32,468 nt of DNA from positions 1-32,468 of the forward strand of contig PWKY01000094.1 of the NCBI GenBank assembly GCA_003560595.1, in the 5' to 3' direction. Made by a program: the position numbers and the translations under genes. Below the pieces are notes generated by a model. It made no database searches and was not told where the DNA came from. It saw only the letters and a program-made list of their open reading frames with translations. Shown here one piece after another: positions 23,162 through 24,657 of the stretch; within the stretch, counting starts at the first letter, position 1; each line of letters begins with the position of its first letter. This DNA comes from Thermoplasmata archaeon. Its GTDB lineage: Archaea > Thermoplasmatota > Thermoplasmata > Halarchaeoplasmatales > Halarchaeoplasmataceae.

Positions 23162-24657
23162 GGTTTCACTTCCTTGAGGCTCATCGCGATATCTTTTCTT
23201 TCCAGAACCTTCTTGTCATCGGCAGTAGGATGGTTACCTCCACCGCTCAGACATCCGTACAGACAGGGGACTACATTCACGGCCCCACTCTTTTTACCGC
23301 TTCCGAGAAGTTCATCTGCTAACTTTTCTGTTATCTTGAAATACTCATCATGCCCGGGTATTCCAGAATGTTTGAACCCTTCAGAGGCACAAGGTCCGTC
23401 GTAATCACCATCTGATGGATCCACGAATCCGATATCTAAATCCATATGGTTGAACAAGTCGATCATCTCCGGTGCTGAGATAACGTGATTTATCTCTTCG
23501 ACAGCCTTTAAACCGGAACATGGGCTCATGATACATATATCTCCGTCTTCTTCTTCCAGGATGAGTCTCCAAGGCGTATTTCCTGCTTCGATCGCAAGAG
23601 TGTCTATACCCTCTGCTTCTATATGATTTCTTGCTGGAAGACACCAACTGGCTAACACTGGTTTTTCGTTATCATCATCCATTTCCTTAGATCTCTCTAA
23701 AAACCTGTCATACTGGATTACTCTATCGAATCCCATCTTCTTCAGACCGCCTATCAGGTATCTCTCTGCCTCTGTGGGTTCCATCTCAGAGAGGATAGAG
23801 TGTTCTTGTAGGAATGATGCAACGGCTATAGAGTCTAGTGCGATTATGTTTACTCGACCACCATCGATCAATCCTGCAGACAGATCCTCAACAGGAGATT
23901 CATTATAGAGAGAATCCACAGGACATAATGCTACACACTGACCACAGTGTATACATCCGTTGGCATCGAATCCGATATCTTTAGGAGTCGAAATTATGGT
24001 CTCGAATCCACGTTCGACAGGACCCAAGGCGTCCACACTCATGACGTCTTGACAGAAGTTAGCACATCGCCGACAGAGTATGCACTTGTTTGGATTATAT
24101 TTTACCAGCGACCGTTCATCGACCTCTTTATCTCTCAGCATCACTTTGAAATCGATGTTTTTATTAGTTTCGACCGGTTTTTTAACCAATCTTTCGATGA
24201 ACTGAAGAACTCGATCACCTCTAACTGGGCAACCCCTGAGATAATAATCTACCTTGACTACTTCGTCAACCGCCTTGCAGGGGAAGTTATCGAAGAATTC
24301 GCTTTTCGATATTTCTTCATCAAGACCTGGATATACTTCATCCTTTACCTCTTCTATCGACCAGTCTTTCTGGAGTTTGTTTACATTCCCATTGGCCGCA
24401 CAGTTTCCAAAAGCTATCAGTAAATCAGCGTTTGATCTGATTTTCTTCAGCCTCTCTTCATCACTGGGCCTCTGTATGGATCCTTCGATGAAAGCAACAT
24501 CGTAGTCGTCCGAATGCTCCTTCATGATCTCTCTGAAACTGACTATCTCGACCAGACCCAGTAGATCCAATATCTTTTCCTCCAAATTGGCTATCTGCAA
24601 TTGATCTCCTTCGCAACTTGCAAAATCAAAAAATGCTACTTTTGGTTTATTTCCCAT
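23158..24657 (-). CDS. Hybrid protein: [NiFe]-hydrogenase small-subunit N-terminal domain + F-cluster ferredoxin domain + [FeFe]-hydrogenase H-cluster-like domain
   Basis: KPKVAFFDFASCEGDQLQIANLEE, AFGNCAANGNV, RGCPVRGDRV; then NPNKCILCRRCANFCQDVMSVDALGPVERGFETIIST...CIHCGQCVALCPVDSL; then LASWCLPARNH, IMSPCSGLKAVEE, VVPCLYGCLSGGGNHP. Start at MGNKPK behind AAGGAGG. Confidence 0.85.
   Translation of the reverse strand: MGNKPKVAFFDFASCEGDQLQIANLEEKILDLLGLVEIVSFREIMKEHSDDYDVAFIEGSIQRPSDEERLKKIRSNADLLIAFGNCAANGNVNKLQKDWSIEEVKDEVYPGLDEEISKSEFFDNFPCKAVDEVVKVDYYLRGCPVRGDRVLQFIERLVKKPVETNKNIDFKVMLRDKEVDERSLVKYNPNKCILCRRCANFCQDVMSVDALGPVERGFETIISTPKDIGFDANGCIHCGQCVALCPVDSLYNESPVEDLSAGLIDGGRVNIIALDSIAVASFLQEHSILSEMEPTEAERYLIGGLKKMGFDRVIQYDRFLERSKEMDDDNEKPVLASWCLPARNHIEAEGIDTLAIEAGNTPWRLILEEEDGDICIMSPCSGLKAVEEINHVISAPEMIDLFNHMDLDIGFVDPSDGDYDGPCASEGFKHSGIPGHDEYFKITEKLADELLGSGKKSGAVNVVPCLYGCLSGGGNHPTADDKKVLERKDIAMSLKEVKP

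Follow-up and report, generated by a model that had tools for sequence, protein, structure and literature searches.

A [NiFe] hydrogenase small subunit fused to an [FeFe]-type H-domain that has probably lost its H-cluster, in a Thermoplasmata archaeon

The 32,468-nucleotide stretch of Thermoplasmata archaeon DNA analysed here (the window) encodes a hybrid subunit in which a [NiFe] small-subunit domain, a 2x[4Fe-4S] ferredoxin domain and an [FeFe] H-domain, probably without an H-cluster, follow one another from the N- to the C-terminus; [NiFe] and [FeFe] hydrogenase parts are joined in one chain and in one operon (Table 1). Our reading, to which we give a probability of about two in three, is that a soluble, sulfhydrogenase-like (group 3) [NiFe] hydrogenase has this protein as its small subunit, extended at the C-terminus by HydABC-type ferredoxin and H-domains, with catalysis at the [NiFe] site and an H-domain that holds one [4Fe-4S] cluster and no H-cluster. 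The H-domain would then probably serve as wiring or scaffold, not as catalyst.

An earlier note on this DNA had recognised the L1, L2 and L3 motifs of an H-cluster-like domain at 23210-23660, and we find them where it placed them, in the open reading frame at 23158-24690, minus strand. The N-terminal [NiFe] small-subunit domain had gone unremarked, as had the invariance of the L1-L3 pattern across the family described below. A profile (A2) built from 18 homologous C-terminal domains and searched against the PDB matched TkHydA1 of Thermoanaerobacter kivui (8a6t, E 4.5e-30), TmHydA of Thermotoga maritima (7p5h, 9.3e-25) and CpI (about 7e-18), and no protein type other than HydA/CpI appeared under E 0.001. 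An AlphaFold2 model of the H-domain alone (pLDDT 87.4, pTM 0.89) had HydA proteins as its top Foldseek matches in the PDB (TmHydA E 8e-10, TM 0.64); the full-length model is weak at its N-terminus (mean pLDDT 63), and the fold claim uses the H-domain model only. We conclude that the C-terminal domain is a genuine H-domain by homology and fold, a chance motif match being ruled out by the profile and fold searches. Its single-sequence PF02906 score is 14.1 bits, under the 22.1-bit cut-off, and routine annotation therefore misses it.

Table 1. Features of the window and the evidence for each; residue numbers are those of the hybrid subunit unless marked CpI.
Feature	Positions	Strand	Evidence
Hybrid subunit, 510 aa	23158..24690	-	ORF; Pfam Oxidored_q6 E 7.6e-23 and Fer4; HydA profile match
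[NiFe] small-subunit domain (sulfhydrogenase delta N-terminal type), aa 14-170	24181..24651	-	9e15_A and 9nez_A matches
2x[4Fe-4S] ferredoxin domain, aa 196-263	23902..24105	-	Pfam Fer4; HydA1 8a6t 114-266; Cys list
H-domain-like C-terminal domain without diiron-site residues, aa 264-505	23176..23901	-	Profile; AF2/Foldseek
L1 motif ASWCLPARN, aa 347-355	23626..23652	-	W349 = CpI C299, C350 = CpI C300
L2 motif SPCSGLKAVEE, aa 389-399	23494..23526	-	C391 = CpI C355, L394 = CpI K358, K395 = CpI K359
L3 motif PCLYGCLSGGGNHP, aa 475-488	23227..23268	-	C476 = CpI C499, C480 = CpI C503
NuoE/HydC-like [2Fe-2S] thioredoxin-fold subunit, 162 aa	22673..23161	-	PF01257 E 7.9e-47; conserved neighbour
NuoF/HydB-GltD fusion, 1066 aa	19472..22672	-	FMN/NADH module and FAD/NADPH module
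228-aa protein	18789..19475	-	HydA/NuoG N-terminal [2Fe-2S] and His-Cys3 domain, then C-terminal half of sulfhydrogenase delta
[NiFe] large subunit, 435 aa	17485..18792	-	PF00374 E 4.4e-26
Second, divergent operon	25103-31233	+	NuoE, HydB-like NuoF with ferredoxin tail, NuoG-like HydA, [NiFe] small and large subunits
Sulfhydrogenase beta-like protein	31359-32423	-	ShyB 140.7 bits
360-aa protein	10996-12078	+	2x[4Fe-4S] ferredoxin insert in a larger protein

The HMMER alignments of profile A2 with HydA and CpI give the correspondences listed in Table 1, with S298 (CpI numbering, used for all positions in this paragraph) retained as Ser. The earlier note had proposed that the four likely cubane Cys are kept, and this is so: the counterparts of C300, C355, C499 and C503 are all present and are invariant in the family. 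It was also right that the proton-relay Cys is missing, as position 299 is Trp in 21/21 fused homologs and never the relay Cys, and that the L2 Lys is shifted by one; position 358 is L, M, H or Y in the family, never Lys, and a Lys stands at 359 instead. Among the other H-cluster positions, M353 is replaced by S or T, M497 by V, F or Y, and A498 by P, while in our reading of the HMMER alignment the proton-path residues E279, E282, R286 and S319 have no conserved counterparts. A one-residue shift of L1, which would place the Cys of this motif on C299, was ruled out: the homologs' SWCPS stands over SCCPS of TkHydA1, so the Cys corresponds to C300.

A search of the genome collection gave 14 full-length hybrid matches. 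One of these (L001, from Thermoplasmata archaeon B1Sed10_107R1, PUPH01000178) encodes a protein identical to the window hybrid, and the remainder come from Thermoplasmata, Balneolales and bins with other labels, soda-lake sediments being the source of most. Further members came from searches of the phylum (390 genomes), the Balneolales order (129) and a class reached via a Bathyarchaeota locus (257). The 21 fused sequences compared (the window, L002-L014, L056, L057, L058, L060, L061, L072 and L095) belong to Thermoplasmatota, to one Bathyarchaeia and to Balneolales, that is, to two archaeal phyla and one bacterial order. Every one of them reads SWC in L1, [ST]PCxxxK in L2 and PCxxxCxxGGG in L3; the corresponding motifs of five unfused HydA from the same phyla (L054, L055, L096, L097 and L098) are TSC[CS]P, MPCTAKK or MPCTSKK, and MACPGGC. 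Two of these unfused proteins, L054 and L055 of Thermoplasmatota, have the L1 sequence TSCSPGW, with Ser at the expected cubane ligand C300. In a phylogenetic tree the fused H-domains form one clade with 100/100 support, separate from canonical HydA; the tree tool warned of long branches within this clade.

For pairs with unsaturated dS, the omega of the H-domain is 0.06-0.11, and the small-subunit domain encoded by this gene has a similar value. Such values indicate purifying selection on the H-domain and rule out a decaying pseudodomain. The genome-scan matches L015-L048, about 250-370 aa long, are stand-alone delta-like proteins that lack the L1/L3 motifs and are not hybrids; G097, which has a PF02906 match without recognisable hybrid neighbours, was left out of the hybrid count. 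Within Balneolales, 9 of the 129 genomes carry the hybrid. The whole hybrid operon occurs in this order (L004-L009, L011 and L013), with a NuoF-GltD about 70% identical to the archaeal protein, and the Balneolales hybrids are nested inside the archaeal family in the tree. Acquisition by horizontal transfer is likely.

The earlier note reported no HydE, HydF or HydG genes in the window, and a genome-wide search extends their absence over cut-off to the window genome, which is 92.7% complete, so that a maturase could be missed. In this genome HydG had no match, and HydE and HydF had none over the curated cut-offs. The best HydF-like match scored 45 bits against a cut-off of 325.55, with all 14 controls also positive, and the HydE-like match 27.2 bits against 254.6, with 12 of the 14 controls also positive; we take these to be unrelated GTPases and unrelated radical-SAM proteins, respectively. 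HypD is present (E 1.6e-140). Across the family, HydG was not found in 18 of the 19 hybrid-bearing genomes searched (G000, G019, G036, G072, G322, G357 and G390-G402), while the positive control, G010, has both canonical HydA and HydG. The exception is G390, a bin labelled Nealsonbacteria that holds hybrid locus L002 (PWEN01000009.1), whose double divergent operon is 77-91% identical to that of the window archaeon. Because a soda-lake Thermoplasmata operon pair at this identity lies inside a Nealsonbacteria bin, the L002 contig is probably mis-binned.

Given the invariant Trp in place of the relay Cys, the loss of Lys-358 and the absence of maturases, we think that the H-domain no longer makes an H-cluster, and the four retained cubane Cys make one ordinary [4Fe-4S] cluster its most likely content. 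The suggestion of a [4Fe-4S]-only domain had been made in the earlier note, and it gains support from the invariant Cys and Trp, the loss of Lys-358 and of the proton path, the lack of maturases over cut-off and the presence of HypD; the diverged H-cluster that it had offered instead is made unlikely by the missing maturases. In its full form, this alternative supposes a working H-cluster with its diiron site and thus a complex with two H2-activating sites. The four cubane Cys, among them the counterpart of C503, the bridge to the diiron site, would allow it, and group D enzymes tolerate the loss of both C299 and M353: TamHydS has Ala at C299 and Ser at the M353 position, yet its H-cluster is present and working (PMC11803613). 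The loss of C299 alone is therefore not proof that the diiron site is lost. However, it is Trp and not a small residue that occupies C299 here, Lys-358 is lost as well, and the maturase searches argue in the same direction, both in the window genome and for HydG in the other hybrid-bearing genomes. We regard a working H-cluster as very improbable, above all because the Trp is bulky, the maturases are missing and the domain is fused to a [NiFe] small subunit. We give least weight of all to an H2- or redox-sensing module of the HydS type (group C/D), since, although the relay Cys is lost in group D too, Pfam finds neither PAS nor any other signalling domain in the protein, and all complete loci place the gene within an operon for a catalytic hydrogenase.

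Of the two roles that the earlier note had put forward, electron relay or sensor, the relay is plausible, while the sensor is not supported, the operon being that of a metabolic hydrogenase. A relay has itself to be weighed against a cluster that is structural or a dead end, in a domain that is kept as a scaffold, or as a surface on which, for example, NuoE/NuoF or the 228-aa partner could dock, and that passes no electrons in turnover. The HydA of NiFe-HydABCSL is devoid of an H-cluster and contains at that position a [4Fe-4S] cluster, A5, the last of a side branch (PMC8880783); A3 is where electrons enter, and A4/A5, at the H-cluster position, form a terminal branch (PMC8880783, PMC9304861). 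A cluster off the main path at this position argues against an obligatory relay role, and the L2-L3 region is shortened in the window subfamily, which also favours a scaffold. Against it, two archaeal phyla and one bacterial order keep the four ligands and the GGG without exception, and the ferredoxin clusters on the way to the H-domain show full conservation in the family as well. We consider a purely structural domain rather unlikely.

The operon surrounding the hybrid gene has the same order in all sufficiently long loci: hybrid, NuoE, NuoF-GltD, 228-aa protein and [NiFe] large subunit. In L078 the order differs and NuoF appears unfused, and the short contig L081 carries the hybrid, the 228-aa protein and the large subunit. 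Both catalytic CxxC pairs of the large subunit are intact (RICGIC and DPCISCSTH), and its nearest match is sulfhydrogenase 1 alpha (9nez_D, E 3.8e-67). The NuoF-GltD protein retains, together with NuoE, the B1 and C1 clusters and the FMN site (CGKCTPC, the NuoE Cys pattern and GRGGAGFP). Where bifurcating HydB has a ferredoxin-like tail with clusters B3/B4, this protein has a GltD domain bearing FAD/NADPH motifs, and the Cx2Cx2Cx3C motif is absent from the place of this tail in the window protein. Without B3/B4, ferredoxin is a less likely partner for NuoF.

The small-subunit domain of the hybrid is of the sulfhydrogenase delta type: the Oxidored_q6 match covers aa 26-167, the N-terminal third of the protein, the domain matches residues 6-149 of sulfhydrogenase 1 delta (9e15_A), and positions 2-156 of the hybrid profile align with 9nez_A 3-151. 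An alignment column listing puts C26, D29, C97 and C154 at the proximal-cluster positions, the second being Cys in most homologs; three Cys with Asp29 are found in the window, L002, L003, L058 and L061, and four Cys in the other members listed. The D29 codon lies at window positions 24604-24606, and the change of the second Cys of the CxxC to Asp (CEGD or CAGD, against CEGC in the others) occurs in two separate branches of the family, in which an Asp-ligated [4Fe-4S] cluster is a possible candidate. In the ferredoxin domain the two Cys sets are C203, C206, C209 and C213, and C246, C249, C252 and C256.

Reading the hybrid and the 228-aa protein side by side, we find that the former consists of sulfhydrogenase delta residues 3-151 followed by HydA 120-520, and the latter of HydA residues 6-127 followed by sulfhydrogenase delta 158-249. 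The matches of the 228-aa protein are to 7t2r_A 6-123, 8a6t 6-127 and 9nez_A 158-249 (E 2.1e-11), with NF040836 at positions 160-255. Judged by these alignments, the two proteins jointly look like one complete delta and one complete HydA, joined crosswise at nearly equal cut points. If such a reciprocal swap is true, it predicts contact between the hybrid and the 228-aa protein. More tentatively still, domain exchange between HydA and sulfhydrogenase delta may have given rise to a five-subunit [NiFe] enzyme, in which the interleaved hybrid and 228-aa protein would wire the [NiFe] site via the disarmed H-domain to NuoF-GltD and couple H2, NAD(H) and NADP(H), with NADP in ferredoxin's place. In our main reading, H2 would be activated at the [NiFe] site of the adjacent large subunit, and electrons would pass from the proximal cluster of the hybrid into an Fe-S chain common to the hybrid and its 228-aa partner, and from there to the FMN of the NuoF part (NAD+) and the FAD of the GltD part (NADP+). 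The [4Fe-4S] cluster of the H-domain would lie on this path or form a dead-end structural cluster.

Archaeal hybrid [FeFe]/[NiFe] hydrogenases have reportedly been described by Greening et al. in 2024 (Cell 187:3357). The window gene very probably belongs to this kind, with which it shares the joining of [FeFe] and [NiFe] hydrogenase modules in an archaeon. With its H-domain below the Pfam cut-off, a Pfam-based screen could overlook hybrids such as the one in the window. Targeted searches of the literature outside that study found no other description of such a fused domain, nor any account of the invariant Trp and shifted Lys together with missing maturases, of the reciprocal swap, of the NuoF-GltD fusion or of the Balneolales copies. 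We take these features to be new as a variant of a known hybrid kind, although Greening et al. may hold some of them.

NiFe-HydABCSL of Acetomicrobium mobile (PMC8880783; 7t2r/7t30) likewise combines a HydABC-like flavin core with a [NiFe] module and a HydA that has a [4Fe-4S] cluster and no H-cluster, but its [NiFe] small subunit is separate, its HydA is without the H-cluster binding motif and its HydB keeps the ferredoxin-like tail. The Stn/Nfn-Bfu transhydrogenases (PMC10482914, PMC9304861; 8oh5, 9bov) share the HydBC-like core and the GltD NADPH module, yet in Stn GltD sits on the NuoG-like StnC (PMC10482914), whereas in the window it takes the place of the ferredoxin-like tail on NuoF/HydB, with a [NiFe] hydrogenase as a further component. 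Sulfhydrogenase 1/2 (SHI, group 3b; 9nez, 9e15) has the same large subunit and both halves of delta, which in the window are split over two proteins, each joined to half a HydA. The HydA of HydABC (8a6t, 7p5h) shares the ferredoxin and H-domain fold and the four cubane Cys; the window protein differs from it in the change of relay Cys to Trp, the loss of Lys-358, the lack of maturases over cut-off and the placing of the N-terminal domain on a separate protein. The family offers a natural series, in which one fold serves [FeFe] catalysis in some proteins and is a disarmed domain of a [NiFe] enzyme in others, with the lost residues defined in 21 sequences. It bears on the entanglement of the two hydrogenase superfamilies and on uses of the H-domain without an H-cluster, and it calls for caution in annotation, as an archaeal H-domain need not imply [FeFe] catalysis.

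The contig and bin name of L001 indicate sediment of the salt-saturated soda lake Bitter-1. In a survey that uses the Bitter-1 sample code, KTK 4A-related Thermoplasmata are characterised as fermenters with a heterotrophic metabolism (PMC6146748). We infer that the window archaeon belongs to the KTK 4A group; a fermenter lifestyle would fit an enzyme disposing of, or recovering, reducing power as H2. Elsewhere in the window, the HydA of the second, divergent operon has the HydA of NiFe-HydABCSL as its best match (E 4.6e-85), and this operon is a closer match to that enzyme than the hybrid operon is. The same pairing of two operons occurs in L001-L003. The sulfhydrogenase beta-like protein stands alone beside the second [NiFe] operon, and in L077 and L080 a homolog is found downstream of the hybrid operon. 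Finally, the best named matches of the 360-aa protein cover its ferredoxin part only.
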